A stretch of DNA of 11,241 nucleotides, from contig PCCJ01000040.1 of the NCBI GenBank assembly GCA_002731665.1, positions 1 through 11,241 of the forward strand. The letters run 5' to 3'. A program made the position numbers and the translations under genes. The stretch is from Actinomycetota bacterium (GTDB lineage Bacteria > Actinomycetota > Acidimicrobiia > Acidimicrobiales > Poriferisodaliceae). Under the pieces are notes generated by a model. That model was not told where the DNA came from. It ran no database searches and worked only from the letters and a program-made list of their open reading frames with translations. Shown here one piece after another: positions 5,286 to 11,241 of the stretch; within the stretch, counting starts at the first letter, position 1, and the number at the start of each line of letters is the position of its first letter.

Positions 5286-5852
5286 ATGTCGATATCGACT
5301 AGTGACTTCAAAAATGGAATAACCATTGACCTTAGTGAGGGTTTGTTTCAAATATCTGAGTTTCAACATGTGAAACCGGGAAAAGGCGGCGCTTTCGTTC
5401 GCACTACGCTTCGCAACGTTAGGACTGGAGCAGTTGTAGAGCGCACCTTTCGATCAGGTGAAAAAATGGAACGAGCCATCATCGATAAGCGAGAGATGCA
5501 ATTCTTATACAACGATGGCTCTGATCTGGTTTTTATGGATATAGAAACTTATGAACAACTCGAGGTGGAGAAATCATCCCTAGGTAATGCACCGGATTAT
5601 TTAGTCGAAGGAAATGGTGTCGTGCTACAGATGTATGGCACAGAAATAGTAGGCACGGACTTGCCTGCTGCTGTTGTACTTGCAGTAACTCAAACTGAGC
5701 CTGGACTTCAAGGAGATCGAGTGTCCGGTGCACGAAAATCAGCGACAATGGAAACAGGTTTAACTGTTCAGGTTCCATTATTTATCGAAATCGGAGAACG
5801 GCTTCGCATTGATACGCGTAGCGGAGAATACATAGAACGAGACAACGGGTGA
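5286..5852 (+). CDS. efp: Translation elongation factor P
   Basis: EF-P enters the ribosomal E-site region and relieves stalling at polyproline stretches. The 188-aa protein has the usual three beta-barrel layout: KOW-like domain I (1-64), OB domain II (about 65-128) and domain III ending in [22 protein letters not shown]. The functional loop reads [13 protein letters not shown] (28-40), with the tip lysine at Lys33. Many actinobacterial EF-Ps carry PGKGP here and are known to work with an unmodified lysine; this one has glycine at the last position. The start is set by AAAGGA six bases upstream. The last four bases overlap the nusB GTG (GTGA at 5849-5852). Identification is firm; whether Lys33 is modified is unknown. 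Confidence 0.97.
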
Positions 5853-6297: not shown

Positions 6298-6327
6298 ATG
6301 AGCGGAAACTTCGGTAACTGCGACTAG
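6298..6327 (+). CDS. Possible 9-codon leader peptide upstream of pyrR
   Basis: ATG 6298 opens a nine-codon frame (MSGNFGNCD) ending in TAG at 6325-6327. Five bases upstream lies AGGTGAG (6286-6292), a strong Shine-Dalgarno match and better than those of most real genes here. The peptide resembles nothing I know, and no codon repeats suggest amino-acid sensing. It ends 13 nt before the PyrR-binding hairpin, so ribosomes on it would lie just upstream of that structure. It may be chance. Confidence 0.25.
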   Translation: MSGNFGNCD

Positions 6328-6340
6328 CATGCGATTCTGA

Positions 6341-6371
6341 CCGTGAAGTGAGTCCTGTGAGGCTCAAACGG
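6341..6371 (+). promoter_or_regulatory. PyrR-binding RNA hairpin (pyr leader)
   Basis: The RNA contains AGTCCTGTGAGGCT at 6351-6364, an exact match to the PyrR-binding consensus ARUCCNGNGAGGYU. Flanking bases fold as in known sites. The lower stem is CCGT (6341-6344) with ACGG (6368-6371), followed by an asymmetric internal bulge (GAAG against A). The upper stem is TGAG (6349-6352) with CTCA (6363-6366), then a bulged U6353, CC/GG and a UGUGA loop. PyrR bound to UMP or UTP should stabilise this hairpin. The pyrR Shine-Dalgarno begins only 3 nt after it, so bound PyrR would likely hinder initiation, as described for PyrR-dependent translational repression in Mycobacterium smegmatis. Confidence 0.9.
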
Positions 6372-6373
6372 CT

Positions 6374-6379
6374 GGAGGA
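6374..6379 (+). promoter_or_regulatory. Shine-Dalgarno of pyrR
   Basis: GGAGGA is a near-perfect Shine-Dalgarno. It is too close to ATG 6380 (no spacer) but ideally placed, with six bases between, for GTG 6386. This decides the pyrR start. It begins three bases after the end of the PyrR-binding hairpin. Confidence 0.75.
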
Positions 6380-6385
6380 ATGCGC

Positions 6386-6952
6386 GTGGCAGATCGCGAA
6401 AGAAGAATGACGCCCCCATTCGGGGGCGTTTTTGTTGCCACGTCAACTATTTTAGATCAAGCCCAAGTTCATAGAGCGCTAACGCGTATTAGTCACGAGA
6501 TAATAGAAAAAAACCGTGGGTTAGACAATATTGTTCTTGTTGCCCTTCAAACTGGCGGAGTTCAGGTAGCCGAGCACATTGCACAGCTACTGTTTGAAAT
6601 TGAAGGCGTTGATGTACCTACAGGAACAATCGATGTCGCCCTTTATCGAGATGACATTGGTCTTCGTCCAGTGATGCCGGAGGCAGAGACTACGATCCCA
6701 GTGGACCTCACCGCTAAGACCGTGGTGCTTGTAGACGATGTTCTGTTCACCGGAAGAACAATTCGCGCTGCATTAGACGCGTTAAATGATTTCGGTAGAC
6801 CTCGAGCTGTACAACTTGCGGTAGTCATAGACCGAGGCCATAGGGAACTGCCTATACGGCCAGACTTTGTTGGCAAAAATCTTCCGACACGGCGCGAAGA
6901 AGTAGTTGATGTAAACCCTGAAGGAGTACTCCTTGGGGTGATGAGAAAATGA
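6386..6952 (+). CDS. pyrR: Pyrimidine operon regulator PyrR (phosphoribosyltransferase fold)
   Basis: PyrR senses uridine nucleotides and binds pyr leader RNA; many members also have uracil phosphoribosyltransferase activity. From GTG 6386 the protein is 188 aa. Motifs are ALTRISHEIIEKNRGLDNIVLV (31-52), the PRPP loop VVLVDDVLFTGRT (103-115) and DRGHRELPIRPDFVGKNLPT (139-158). Thr33, His37, Arg143, Arg148 and Lys154 correspond, by my recollection of the Bacillus protein, to residues used in RNA recognition. The usual TRG of the pyrophosphate loop reads TGG (56-58). About 15 extra N-terminal residues (MADRERRMTPPFGGVF) precede the conserved core, and codons 9-17 are the terminator-like hairpin itself. 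ATG 6380 (SD abutting) and ATG 6407 are alternatives; no ATG, GTG or TTG follows until far into the core. The stop overlaps pyrB. Confidence 0.93.
   Translation: MADRERRMTPPFGGVFVATSTILDQAQVHRALTRISHEIIEKNRGLDNIVLVALQTGGVQVAEHIAQLLFEIEGVDVPTGTIDVALYRDDIGLRPVMPEAETTIPVDLTAKTVVLVDDVLFTGRTIRAALDALNDFGRPRAVQLAVVIDRGHRELPIRPDFVGKNLPTRREEVVDVNPEGVLLGVMRK
6410..6433 (+). terminator. Intrinsic-terminator hairpin within the 5' coding region of pyrR
   Basis: A perfect 8-bp, GC-rich stem pairs ACGCCCCC (6410-6417) with GGGGGCGT (6422-6429) around the loop ATTC. It is followed by an uninterrupted T-tract (6429-6433), then GTT. This is the classic form of a Rho-independent terminator and the strongest such structure in the window. 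It lies 8 codons after the preferred pyrR GTG and encodes TPPFGGVF in frame. A ribosome translating pyrR would melt it; without translation it should form and stop RNA polymerase. I found no upstream segment that clearly forms a classical antiterminator with it. Confidence 0.8.
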
Positions 6953-7902
6953 TGAAACATCTTCTCGAGCTTGAAGAGCTTGACCTCGAAGGTATTCAAG
7001 CAATTCTTCAGCTCACAGATCGATTCGTCGAGGTAGGGGAAAGGGCAATTCCGAAAGTGCCGGCTCTACGAGGAAAAACTGTAGCCAACATGTTTTTTGA
7101 AGACTCGACTCGCACCCGGCTCTCATTTGACGTCGCTGCGAAGCGACTATCTGCGGATGTCCTGACTTTTTCTGCGAGCTCTTCCTCATTGAACAAAGGT
7201 GAGTCGATTCGAGATAGCGTTGAAACGCTCGAAGCAATGGGAATTAATGCAATAGTCGTGAGGCACAGCTCCTCTGGAGTTCCTCAACAGATAAGTCGAT
7301 GGGTGAATGAAGGCATTTCGGTCATAAACGCAGGCGATGGATGGCATGCGCACCCTACACAGGGGCTCCTCGATGCCTACACAGTGTGCGAGCATTTCAG
7401 GGGACCGGCTGGTCCGGCAGCTTCCTTGCAGGGACTACATGTTGGTTTAGTCGGAGATATTTTGCATAGCCGGGTCGCTCGAAGCGATATTCAGGCATAT
7501 ACGGCTTTAGGAGCCACGGTCACGCTGATAGCACCACCTACGTTGCTGCCAGCAGATATTTCGACCTGGCCAGTTCGGGTAAGCCAAGACCTTGATCAAG
7601 TTCTTCCGACGTTAGACGTTTTGGGTCTTCTCAGAGTGCAAAGAGAACGGATGGCGGAAGGATCAATTGGTTCGATGCGTGAATACATCGAAGAATTCAG
7701 CCTAACCCAAAGGCGTGTAAAACTATTATCAGACACTGCTGTCATCACTCATCCGGGCCCCGTTGTGCGCGGAGTGGAGGTAACTGGATCAGTTCTTGAT
7801 GAGTATCCGAGAGTTCTCAAAAATCGTCAAGTGTCAAATGGTGTTGCTGTTCGAATGGCTGTGCTTTTCCTCTTACTTGGATCCGGAGCAGAACTTGTCT
7901 AG
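6949..7902 (+). CDS. pyrB: Aspartate carbamoyltransferase catalytic subunit
   Basis: PyrB joins carbamoyl phosphate and aspartate into carbamoyl aspartate, the committed step of pyrimidine synthesis. The 317-aa protein has the carbamoyl-phosphate motif STRTRLSF (53-60), Lys83 in LNKGES, Arg105-His106, HPTQGLLD (135-142), HSRVARSD (173-180), LRVQRER (228-234) and HPGPVVRGVEV (268-278), so all active-site segments are intact. ATG 6949 overlaps the pyrR stop (ATGA); an adjacent in-frame ATG at 6952 is possible. GGTGAT a few bases upstream may act as the ribosome binding site. No regulatory pyrI gene follows. It has no long N-terminal extension of the kind seen in Pseudomonas PyrB, yet it is followed by a dihydroorotase-like gene lacking catalytic residues, which suggests a PyrB-partner complex. 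Confidence 0.97.
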   Translation: MMKHLLELEELDLEGIQAILQLTDRFVEVGERAIPKVPALRGKTVANMFFEDSTRTRLSFDVAAKRLSADVLTFSASSSSLNKGESIRDSVETLEAMGINAIVVRHSSSGVPQQISRWVNEGISVINAGDGWHAHPTQGLLDAYTVCEHFRGPAGPAASLQGLHVGLVGDILHSRVARSDIQAYTALGATVTLIAPPTLLPADISTWPVRVSQDLDQVLPTLDVLGLLRVQRERMAEGSIGSMREYIEEFSLTQRRVKLLSDTAVITHPGPVVRGVEVTGSVLDEYPRVLKNRQVSNGVAVRMAVLFLLLGSGAELV

Positions 7903-9166
7903 TCGACTGCTTTCGTATTTCTTCAAAGGTGGAGAAGTAGTAGATCAGAGTGGTCGGCGTTATGAAGATGTGGCTGTTTCAGATGGAATGATTGTCAAAC
8001 AACCAACTGATGATGCCATAGAAATAGATATCAGTGGGTGTGTTATGTCCGCTGGATTGGTAGATCTTTCAGTGAACTTCGGTGAGCCGGGTTTCGAGGA
8101 TGTTGAGTGTGTTGATAGTGGTTCCAGAGCGGCGGCAAGAGGCGGGTTTACTGCAGTTCTAAATAGCTCAGATACCTTCCCTGTTCTTGACTGCCCATCG
8201 ATGCTAGCTGAAGCTGAATTGCTCTTTGCTAAGAGCATTTGTGAGATGAGAGCGAGCGCCACTATTACAGTCGGAGGCAAGGGGTTAAGTTTGGCTCCAT
8301 TGCGGGAGCTAAGCACTAAAGGTGTCCGCTGGTTCAGCGATCGCGGAGCTATAGAAAATAAAAGTTTGTTGCGTAACGCAATGGAATATTCCTTAAGTGG
8401 TTCTGTCATCTCAGTTCGTCCCCGATCTGGATCTCTAAATGTTAATGGGGCAATGCACGAGGGAAAGTGGTCAGCAATATTAGGTCTTCCTGGGGAGCCA
8501 AGCGTTAGTGAGACATCAGAAGTTGCGGCCATTATTGACCTCGCACACGTTACCGGAGCCCGTGTTCATCTAGATCGGATTAGTGCAGCTGAGTCCGTTC
8601 AGCTACTCCGAGAAGCCAAACGGAACGGCGTTGAAATAACTTCTTCTGTGACCATCCAGCACCTAATGTTCACAGATTCAGATTGCGCCGCCTATGACCC
8701 TATGTACCGAGCTGAGCCTCCGTACCGTTCTGACGAAGATCGAAAAGCACTTATTTTAGGAGTTGAAGATAGAACTATCGATATCGTGGTGAGCGACCAC
8801 CGCCCAGCCACTGCTGAAGCAAAAGAACTCCCCTTTGATAAATCAGCAAAAGGCGCAGCAGGAATTGAAGCTACTGCAGCTCTCTTAATGGGCTCCTGTG
8901 GCTTAGAACTTGAAGTAGTTTTAGATGCTTTATCTTGGCGCCCGGCAAAAGTCGCTGGTTTCGTAAACCATGGCAATCTAGTTCGTCCGGGGAATGTCGC
9001 CAATTTGACTGTGTTGAACCCAAAGGCCTCATGGAAGTTTCAAGCTAGCGAGCAAGTTTCCCGAGGTCGAAACAATCCTTATTTTGAAAAAATACTTACG
9101 GGTCGCGTGATCCACACGATATATCGAGGAGAGCTAGTGGTTACTGATAGTGAGGTCGTTGTATGA
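7895..9166 (+). CDS. Dihydroorotase homologue lacking metal ligands (probable non-catalytic PyrC')
   Basis: The 423-aa product aligns by eye along the whole length of type I dihydroorotases: KGGEVVD at the N terminus, GEPGFEDVECVDSGSRAAARGGFTAV, AILGLPGEPSVSETSEV, EPPYRSDEDRKALILG, IDIVVSDHRP, and a C-terminal segment ending in RVIHTIYRGELVV. The residues that bind the metals are mostly gone. The HxH motif reads S59-V60-N61. FSDDG reads FSDRG (Arg150). The HxED histidine is Arg175 within VRPRS. The HxxHxS histidine is Arg228. Only Asp301 in SDHRP remains. It is therefore unlikely to cyclise carbamoyl aspartate. The frame is intact, so it is not a decaying pseudogene; a structural role with PyrB, as for Pseudomonas PyrC', is the best inference. 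TTG 7895 is supported by GGAG at 7885-7888 and overlaps pyrB by 8 nt; the same frame reaches further upstream only within pyrB. Confidence 0.9.
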   Translation: MSSRLLSYFFKGGEVVDQSGRRYEDVAVSDGMIVKQPTDDAIEIDISGCVMSAGLVDLSVNFGEPGFEDVECVDSGSRAAARGGFTAVLNSSDTFPVLDCPSMLAEAELLFAKSICEMRASATITVGGKGLSLAPLRELSTKGVRWFSDRGAIENKSLLRNAMEYSLSGSVISVRPRSGSLNVNGAMHEGKWSAILGLPGEPSVSETSEVAAIIDLAHVTGARVHLDRISAAESVQLLREAKRNGVEITSSVTIQHLMFTDSDCAAYDPMYRAEPPYRSDEDRKALILGVEDRTIDIVVSDHRPATAEAKELPFDKSAKGAAGIEATAALLMGSCGLELEVVLDALSWRPAKVAGFVNHGNLVRPGNVANLTVLNPKASWKFQASEQVSRGRNNPYFEKILTGRVIHTIYRGELVVTDSEVVV

Positions 9167-10251
9167 GTGCGATTAGATATGGTTGTTTAGTCCTTGCAGA
9201 TGGAAGTGTTTTCGAAGGTGAACTCATAGGGGCAGAGCGTGAGGTGGCTTCGGGGGAAGTCGTATTTAATACTTCTATGAGTGGATACCAAGAAGTTATC
9301 ACTGACCCGTCGTACGCAGGTCAGATAATAAACTTTACCTACCCTCACATCGGCAACTACGGAGTTAACAGCAACGATGTTGAAAGTAAGCGTTCTCATT
9401 GCCGAGGGATTATTATTCGCGACTTAGCTCGGCGACACTCGAATTGGAGAAGCGAAGACGATCTTGATTCGTACTTGAAACTTGAAGGAGTTCCCGGTAT
9501 CGCTGGTATCGATACTCGCCGGCTGACACGTCACATCAGAAATCATGGATCAATGTCTGGGGCCTTTGGCGAACTGAACGAAAAAAAATTGGGTGAGGTT
9601 GCTGCTGCTGAACTCGGAACGAGTGGCATCGATTTAGTCAGTCAGGTCAGTACGAAATCTCCATACACAGTGGGTAATGGACCATGGCGAGTAGTGGTGT
9701 ATGACCTTGGAGTTAAGCAGTCGATTCTTGAACAGCTCGGGAGAATTGCGACAATTGAGGTCGTTCCAGCAGATACAAAACCGGAAGAAGTCATTAGGCG
9801 AAATCCGCACGGCGTTTTTTTGTCAAACGGGCCCGGCGACCCAGAAATGGCGGGCGCTGTTGTTTCGGCGATAAAACAGTTCCTAGGGGTAATTCCTGTG
9901 TTTGGTATTTGTCTCGGGCACCAAGTGTTATCTTTGGCACTTGGAGGCCGCTCATTTAAAATGAAGTTCGGCCACCACGGTGGGAATGTTCCCGTTCGGA
10001 ATGAACTTACAGGCAAGGTTGAGATAACAAGCCAAAACCACAACTTTGCAATTGAGTCGGGATCGGTACCGGGAGTCGTGGAAACCCATTTTTGTCTCAA
10101 CGACGGCACTCTTGAAGGGCTTCGATGTCAAGATATCCCAGCGTTTAGCGTTCAATACCATCCGGAGGCAAGCCCAGGCCCTCATGATTCCAGATATTTA
10201 TTCGATCAATTCGCAGAGCTTATGAGTTCATTCCATGGAGATCAAAGTTAA
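9163..10251 (+). CDS. carA: Carbamoyl-phosphate synthase small (glutaminase) subunit
   Basis: CarA hydrolyses glutamine and channels ammonia to CarB for carbamoyl phosphate synthesis. The 362-aa protein has the CarA-specific N-terminal domain ([20 protein letters not shown], 32-51; then [15 protein letters not shown], 112-126). The class I amidotransferase domain follows: SNGPGDP (221-227), nucleophile Cys250 in [17 protein letters not shown] (279-287), and His333/Glu335 in [10 protein letters not shown]. The triad is complete. ATG 9163 overlaps the stop of the preceding gene (ATGA), with GAGG at 9152-9155 as ribosome binding site. It forms the complex with CarB, encoded directly downstream, and supplies PyrB's substrate as well as arginine synthesis. 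Confidence 0.97.
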
Positions 10252-11241
10252 TGCCGCGTAGAGATGATATTGAAAGCATTCTGATAATCGGCTCTGGCCC
10301 GATCGTAATTGGTCAAGCTTGTGAATTTGACTACTCAGGGACACAAGCGTGTCGAGTGTTGAGAGACGAGGGTTACCGAGTGATCCTCGCTAACTCGAAT
10401 CCAGCGACAATTATGACTGATCCTGAATTTGCTGACGCGACTTACATAGAGCCGTTAGACGTCGCTGTGCTAACTGCGATTATCGAAAAAGAGCGTCCGG
10501 ACGCAGTATTGCCAACTCTTGGTGGACAGACGGCTCTCAACCTAGCGACAGAGCTCGCCAACGCAGGTGTCCTAGACAAACATAACGTTGAGATGATTGG
10601 TGCGAGCAATGACGCTATTAAGACTGCGGAAGACCGTGATCTTTTCCGCAGAGCAATGGCTGAAATTGGGATTGAATGCGCTCGGTCTGAGATAGCTCAC
10701 AATATAGAAGAAGCGCGCGCAGCGCTAAAAGAAATTGGTCTTCCAGTCATTATTCGACCGGCTTACATTCTCGGAGGTAAAGGAACTGCGTTCGCATACA
10801 CGTTAGAAGAATATGAGAAAGTAGCAGCGTTGGGACTAGAGGCGAGCCCTATCTCTGAGATTTTGATCGAGCAATCCATTAAGGGCTGGAAAGAATTCGA
10901 GCTTGAAGTGATGCGCGATCATGAAGATAACTGCGTAGTTATCTGCTCGATCGAAAACGTCGACGCGATGGGTGTTCATACAGGTGACTCGATCACTGTT
11001 GCACCCGCTCAAACGCTTTCTGATGTCGAGTATCAAACAATGAGAGACTCTGCCTTCGCTTGCATTCGCCGCGTGGGGGTGGAGACTGGCGGTTCAAACG
11101 TTCAATTTGCAGTGCACCCCGAAACCGGACAGCAAATAGTTATCGAAATGAATCCACGCGTCAGTCGCAGCTCAGCCCTAGCGTCTAAAGCCACAGGTTT
11201 CCCAATAGCAAAGATTGCTGCCCGCCTGGCTGTGGGTTATA
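10251..11241 (+). CDS. carB: Carbamoyl-phosphate synthase large subunit, N-terminal part (3' truncated by window)
   Basis: The frame from ATG 10251 stays open to the window edge (330 complete codons of a protein usually near 1070 aa). It covers the carboxyphosphate-forming ATP-grasp half. Visible are [20 protein letters not shown] (11-30), [20 protein letters not shown] (48-67), [13 protein letters not shown] (87-99), Arg169 in [31 protein letters not shown] (242-261) and the metal-binding Gln285, Glu299 and Asn301 ([20 protein letters not shown]). Position numbers agree with E. coli CarB. The glycine loop reads GGKGTAF, where GGxGGG or GGxGSG is usual, a mild variant. The ATG overlaps the carA stop by one base, with GGAG at 10237-10240 upstream. 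The extreme N terminus lacks extensions. Confidence 0.97.

Follow-up and report, generated by a model that had tools for sequence, protein, structure and literature searches.

The window, by which we mean the whole 11,241-nt stretch of DNA analyzed here, carries on its forward strand efp and nusB, followed by the pyrimidine genes pyrR, pyrB, a pyrC-like gene, carA, and carB (Table 1). The first of these genes was identified as pyrR at the equivalog level by NF003549, and four sister PyrR models scored below their own cutoffs. Among the matches listed, the PyrR proteins closest to that of the window came from Acidimicrobiaceae/Acidimicrobiales metagenome genomes (L026, 99% identity; L001, 96%). 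A contig titled as a Klebsiella pneumoniae MAG (L061), possibly a mislabeled bin, also carries a PyrR-like gene, which shares 60% identity with that of the window. When the stretch 7865-9163 was searched against NCBIfam, all 25 matches listed for the pyrC-like protein scored below their cutoffs. Dihydroorotases carry a D-x-H-x-H metal motif, and at the corresponding place this protein has GLVDLSVNFGEPG. Judging from its residues, it may be a noncatalytic partner of PyrB.

Table 1. Features of the pyr locus in order along the window
Feature	Position	Strand	Evidence or remark
efp (elongation factor P)	5286-5852	+	two genes 5' of pyrR
nusB	ends 6274	+	5' of pyrR
-10-like box TAGCAT	6325-6330	+	TANNNT at fixed distance from the TCC of the loop; predicted transcript start at about 6336-6339
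PyrR-binding stem-loop (predicted)	6341-6371	+	RF00515 alignment; lower stem 6341-6344/6368-6371, upper stem 6349-6354/6361-6366, loop CTGTGA
Shine-Dalgarno GGAGGA	6374-6379	+	sequence; 2 nt 3' of the binding stem
pyrR, start GTG 6386	6386-6952	+	NCBIfam NF003549, 219.5 bits (cutoff 138); start-codon mix and codon-position pattern
In-frame candidate terminator hairpin	6409-6430	+	sequence, folding, synonymous null, covariation; codons 6410-6430 = TPPFGGV
T-tract TTTTTGTT	6429-6436	+	end of GTT, then TTT GTT; T-rich codon preference
pyrB, start overlapping pyrR stop	6949-7902	+	NF002032, 359.9 bits (cutoff 263)
Dihydroorotase-like gene (pyrC-like)	7796-9166	+	highest NCBIfam score 296 bits (cutoff 538, not reached)
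carA	9163-10251	+	TIGR01368, 455.7 bits (cutoff 307)
carB, truncated by window end	10251-11240	+	NF003671, 610.1 bits (cutoff 599)

To the 5' side of pyrR, the Rfam model RF00515 aligned end to end over positions 6337-6436 with 32.6 bits, which is below its gathering score of 54. A search of the window at that cutoff returned no match, as did a search of genome G002; among the control genomes, Thermus composti matched. Both the alignment and the covariation recovered the bipartite stem that the PyrR loop caps. Counting from the TCC of this loop, 79 of 150 sequences had a TANNNT motif that began at -28, and 131 occurrences fell between -30 and -25, compared with fewer than one per position farther upstream. 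The window's own copy was not flagged by a consensus promoter scan, which demands a -35 box. The recurring position points to a putative promoter. With the -10-like box held at this distance, the leader would consist of the PyrR loop only, and a transcript starting at the foot of the stem-loop would leave no space for a Bacillus-style leader. Purine-rich stretches resembling the Shine-Dalgarno sequence were visible, though uncounted, in relatives.

The original prediction placed the start of pyrR at GTG 6386, behind the GGAGGA motif, and comparison with relatives supports that choice. Codons are numbered here from ATG 6380, which makes GTG 6386 codon 3; the open frame spans 6380-6952. Among 75 relatives that share the 22-codon type, the codon aligned with GTG 6386 was GTG (43), ATG (19), or TTG (13), and codons 4 to 8 encoded A-E/D-R-E-R with variation that was mostly in third positions. 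Because these rows were chosen for having a start codon at this place and at least three E or R among the next five residues, the evidence they provide is limited to the mixture of start codons and the variability at third positions. Together, these two patterns make it very likely that the region is translated from 6386 through the hairpin. Initiation at ATG 6380 was rejected: the Shine-Dalgarno sequence would touch the start codon, and among the relatives listed, ATG was found there only in L001 and L026. The suggestion that ribosomes might instead initiate at ATG 6407 fared poorly, since codon 10 is ATG in just 16 of the 75 relatives. Inspection by eye confirmed that the window has no in-frame ATG, GTG, or TTG between the hairpin and the conserved ALTRI motif. 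Such a codon was present at residues 19 to 31 in 59 of the 75 relatives and absent from 16.

The hairpin was present as described, about 24 nt into pyrR, with a perfect 8-bp stem formed by ACGCCCCC (6410-6417) and GGGGGCGT (6422-6429) around an ATTC loop. A ninth pair, G6409-U6430, is possible, and TTTGTTGCC follows on the 3' side. Folded alone, the hairpin had an energy of -17.9 kcal/mol (z = -5.2), and none of 200 shuffles was equally stable. The full presumed 104-nt transcript (6337-6440) was less striking (z = -1.4; 20 of 200 shuffles equally stable). We also applied a filter for strong terminators, which required an unbroken stem of 6 or more pairs, an energy of -12 kcal/mol or lower, and no fewer than 5 T's in 8. 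The hairpin was the only forward-strand site in the window that passed, and its minus-strand reading passed too. A forward-strand site of the same strength was likewise unique in 12 of 13 loci of 11 to 12.6 kb; the other, L005, had one extra. The element thus combines the GC-rich stem and T-tract of an intrinsic terminator, beyond what chance would produce.

A PyrR match was found in 355 of the 395 genomes of the class that were searched, although some matches were weak. From these we examined 130 loci (30 plus 100), mostly from the best-ranked of the 355 genomes. The full set of 150 loci includes one (L074) whose record title has no class name. Of these 150 loci, nearly all from Acidimicrobiia, 95 had a hairpin within the pyrR frame ("fused") under a lenient threshold (E ≤ -9, at least 4 T's); the strict threshold was passed by 73 of 149. 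Since the loci were mostly best-ranked matches, 95 of 150 is not a frequency for the class. Another 49 loci had no hairpin, two had a hairpin under a separate leader open reading frame (ORF) (L175 and L177), and four had no recognized loop. These last four, missed by the loop finder, are L012, L015, and L083, which have a strong hairpin, and L185, which has none. The expectation that relatives would carry the hairpin was therefore borne out at 95 loci and failed at 49, L017 among them, which means that some lineages lost the hairpin or never had it. Within the 95, L014 and L016 have weaker stems and no more than 3 T's in a row. These two loci and L017 keep the peptide APP(F/Y)GG with weaker stems and at most 3 consecutive T's, offering a natural contrast for the switch. 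The distance from start codon to hairpin was 22 to 26 nt in 63 of the 95 rows, taking the first start codon after the loop, so that the window is counted from 6380.

We compared the hairpins with a null distribution of synonymous recodings that kept the peptide and the codon use of the gene. The comparison covered 151 loci (the window and relatives), of which 149 were usable. At E ≤ -12 kcal/mol with at least 5 T's in 8, 73 of 149 loci passed, compared with 2.5 expected; when at least 6 T's were required, 63 passed against an expectation of 0.4. None of 603 control windows from pyrR codons 30 to 150 passed at E ≤ -12. At E ≤ -8, six of the 603 passed with at least 4 T's and one with at least 5. 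A weak threshold (E ≤ -6, at least 4 T's) was less telling, with 89 of 144 observed and 39 expected. Of the 86 hairpins tested individually, which had been preselected for having a hairpin, 84 beat 95% of their synonymous recodings. Because the sequences are related, these counts reflect strength and not a number of independent events.

Codon choice in the 95 compact hairpins followed the same pattern. Stem-facing third bases were almost fixed: codon 11 was ACG in 68 rows, codon 12 was CCC in 64, codon 15 was GGG in 72, and codon 16 was GGC in 73. In the rest of the gene, GGG makes up 20% of Gly codons and ACG 21% of Thr codons. The loop-facing third base of codon 13 was free (CCC 33, CCG 24, CCA 15, CCT 13; entropy, 1.79 bits). 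Valine was encoded by GTT in 66 of the 70 Val codons listed at codon 17 and in 52 of the 67 listed at codon 19, compared with 10% in the rest of the gene, and phenylalanine at codon 18 by TTT in 48 of 87 cases, compared with 19%.

When relatives were aligned, as the original prediction had proposed, many of them kept the stem, T-tract, and frame together, with some compensatory changes. Across 38 aligned sequences, the PyrR stem and terminator were paired in 95.6% of cells, and 8 of 18 pairs had double-sided changes. The covariation score was 0.168, compared with 0.078 in shuffles, none of 500 reaching it, although the structure was derived from the same 38 sequences, which favors it. Versions of the structure that were slid along the alignment dropped to 27 to 48% paired. 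The upper PyrR helix was 98.7% paired, with double-sided changes in 4 of 6 pairs; the lower helix was 94.7% paired, with none. In the terminator, double-sided changes occurred in 4 of 8 pairs, amounting to 6 cells in total. The parts of the element, their order, their frame, their covariation, and selection on both the pairing and the T's can thus be read directly from the compared sequences, and on that basis we conclude that the hairpin and T-tract are kept by selection.

From this arrangement we infer a promoter, binding by PyrR-UMP, termination, and its relief by ribosomes. Taken together, the data make it probable that the locus is a PyrR-controlled, translation-coupled transcription attenuator in which PyrR's own N-terminal residues serve as the translated "leader." Transcription would begin at the foot of the PyrR-binding stem-loop. 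Under pyrimidine surplus, PyrR-UMP would occupy the stem-loop and bar ribosomes from the Shine-Dalgarno sequence 2 nt downstream. With the first codons left naked, the GC-rich hairpin would fold behind RNA polymerase, and the T-tract would release the transcript before pyrR-pyrB-pyrC-carAB. Under pyrimidine scarcity, a ribosome would initiate at GTG 6386, enter the hairpin, and hold it open so that transcription continues, making an RNA antiterminator unnecessary. When no ribosome is translating it, this stop signal probably cuts off transcription of the entire pyrimidine operon. We favor, with moderate confidence, the further view that an attenuator's leader peptide was captured by its own regulator. 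The first ~22 codons of PyrR would then double as a ribosome-read terminator, and the operon would be transcribed only while its repressor is translated.

Timing in such a mechanism would be tight. The stretch from GTG 6386 to where the T-tract ends is about 50 nt long, and the footprint of a ribosome that has not yet left the start codon should fall short of the hairpin. The hairpin encodes Pro-Pro at 6413-6418, two genes downstream of efp; Pro-Pro is a slow step that is aided by EF-P. One study reports that ribosomes block intrinsic terminator hairpins, including that of pyrL, and that in Escherichia coli lacking EF-P, a PPPPPP stall before an intrinsic terminator raised termination (PMC5021804).

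We weighed four other explanations. One is that PyrR represses translation only, in the manner of Mycobacterium smegmatis, and that the hairpin is a nonterminating structural or mRNA-stability element. The 49 loci with a PyrR loop and no hairpin are compatible with this explanation, as is the fact that the stem encodes amino acids kept in many relatives. However, a stability stem needs no T-tract, and T's were favored at codons 18 and 19, which lie outside the stem and so point to a terminator and not merely a stem. A strong stem with a T-tract is also all but unique within the loci of 11 to 12.6 kb. On balance, we regard repression of translation alone as unlikely.

We also considered attenuation of the Bacillus type, in which a terminator in the 5' leader competes with an RNA antiterminator and PyrR is made from the uncommon downstream start ATT 6449. 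The end-to-end alignment of RF00515, whose model comprises loop, middle stem, and terminator, would fit such a system, but most of the aligned middle stem does not pair. Complementarity between the leader and the stem arms in the 95 rows was not above that of shuffles in either of two duplex tests (z = +0.54; z = +0.42, with 6 of 95 beating 95% of shuffles). The corresponding values were z = -0.18 (1 of 22) in 22 leader-type loci of the phylum and z = -0.64 (6 of 34) in a mostly Bacillota set in which an antiterminator is expected. Even that set was barely above shuffles, so that testing of this kind has little power; neither test found an antiterminator. Furthermore, GTG 6386 precedes the hairpin, whereas a Bacillus-type terminator lies before the start codon; the coding pattern extends before and into the hairpin, the start codon is properly spaced from its Shine-Dalgarno sequence, and the window offers no ATG, GTG, or TTG downstream. 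These observations make a Bacillus-type switch quite improbable.

We give even less credence to the idea that the hairpin mainly insulates the operon against ribosome-free readthrough from an upstream efp-nusB transcript. Both genes do lie upstream on the same strand. However, a terminator serving that purpose would have no need to sit within the pyrR frame or at a fixed spacing from the PyrR loop, and readthrough transcripts, too, would leave the start of pyrR open. Least credible is that TPPYGGVFVAR is kept for PyrR function with the hairpin as a by-product of Pro and Gly codons: GC-rich codons often yield weak stems under the synonymous null, but the expectation collapses at realistic strength, codon bias argues against chance as well, the stem is kept over TPHRRG in L101 and over TRHPGAAF in L144 and L151, and L174 and L192 have a different, 12-pair stem.

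The translation-coupled attenuator that we favor has apparent relatives elsewhere in the phylum. Among 28 phylum loci drawn from 144 genomes with a match (three of them, L227, L231, and L249, come from genomes also in the class draw), 19 were labeled as having a hairpin under a short ORF by the PyrR loop, three had a hairpin without an ORF, and six had none, three of these six being in class-draw genomes. The "leader ORF" label is only suggestive, because it was assigned mechanically with no null and was also given to 24 of 59 other loci, mostly Bacillota. The "fused" label was given to 7 of those 59 as well, and it requires a check of the start, because in four of the seven (L024, L030, L053, and L055) a separate start codon lies 3' of the hairpin, in three cases with an evident Shine-Dalgarno sequence. 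The stop codon of the leader ORF seems to overlap the start of pyrR in L236 and L245. In L237, the short ORF that follows the PyrR loop terminates within a long hairpin ending in a T run; this locus may work differently. A second match to the RNA model was seen before an apparent carA, recognized by eye from translations, in L241 (G122), L228 (G063), and L233 (G031). In L241, this second element lies about 3.6 kb from the pyrR element and has a short leader ORF, a GC-rich inverted repeat, and a stop overlapping the carA start. Such a layout suggests that PyrR may control carA separately in that genome.

On a PyrR tree of 141 rows, with noisy labels and unsettled bootstrap support, the "fused" label required 23 changes, at least 11 of them on well-supported branches, implying frequent gain or loss. 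A fused clade of nine rows (L172, L186, L187, L188, L190, L196, L206, L208, and L209) was split from the main fused clade by a 100/99 branch. A P-x-GG-like pattern, which the hairpin itself could impose, is preserved in several peptides of this clade. That hairpins of differing sequence and length occur over different N-terminal peptides suggests rebuilding of the element, and perhaps more than one capture of a leader by pyrR.

If this reading is true, a single RNA-binding regulator, PyrR, has no fewer than three routes to the same outcome in one phylum (no hairpin, a leader-ORF hairpin, and an in-gene hairpin), which would make the evolutionary order of attenuators testable. The locus would also show clearly how selected bases can serve an RNA structure and a protein sequence at once, and it could act as a natural reporter of how transcription and translation are coupled in Actinomycetota.

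The system closest in design is the attenuation model for pyr in Thermus ZO5, reportedly proposed by Van de Casteele et al. in 1997 with PyrR, a terminator, no antiterminator, and a separate short leader ORF that is translated. As in that model, a translating ribosome would prevent the terminator from forming: an ORF with a Shine-Dalgarno sequence beside the PyrR loop runs through the hairpin and T-tract. Unlike in the Thermus model, that ORF is pyrR; the window has no separate leader peptide, and the hairpin is part of the protein. The locus resembles the PyrR attenuator of Bacillus subtilis (RF00515) in having a PyrR-binding loop and an intrinsic terminator that precede the bulk of the operon, and differs in that the terminator lies in the coding region and no conserved antiterminator was detected by our low-powered test. 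In M. smegmatis, PyrR is said to repress translation. The PyrR loop adjoining the pyrR Shine-Dalgarno sequence recalls that system, and the additional terminator in the first codons sets the locus apart from it. The proposal that elements of the Bacillus and Mycobacterium types are merged here is therefore supported by the comparison. The principle itself is not new, since a leader-ORF version occurs in the phylum, on the mechanical calls at 19 of 28 loci made with no null, and was reportedly proposed for Thermus.

In the pyrBI/pyrL attenuator of E. coli, the outcome is set by UTP-dependent pausing of RNA polymerase. It differs from the present locus in having a separate leader peptide and no RNA-binding protein as its setter. 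What the two would share is that a ribosome on an ORF overlapping the terminator prevents termination (PMC5021804). In the B12 riboswitches and upstream ORFs of a mycobacterium, a blocked translation start is likewise reported to go along with early loss of the transcript; unlike here, the RNA itself binds the ligand, and for metE no intrinsic hairpin was found and the authors consider Rho the likely agent (PMC11260477). In the open literature that we searched, there was no report of a terminator inside the pyrR frame. Compared with these systems, what is new here is that the element sits inside the gene of its regulator, that it is conserved, and that three arrangements stand side by side.
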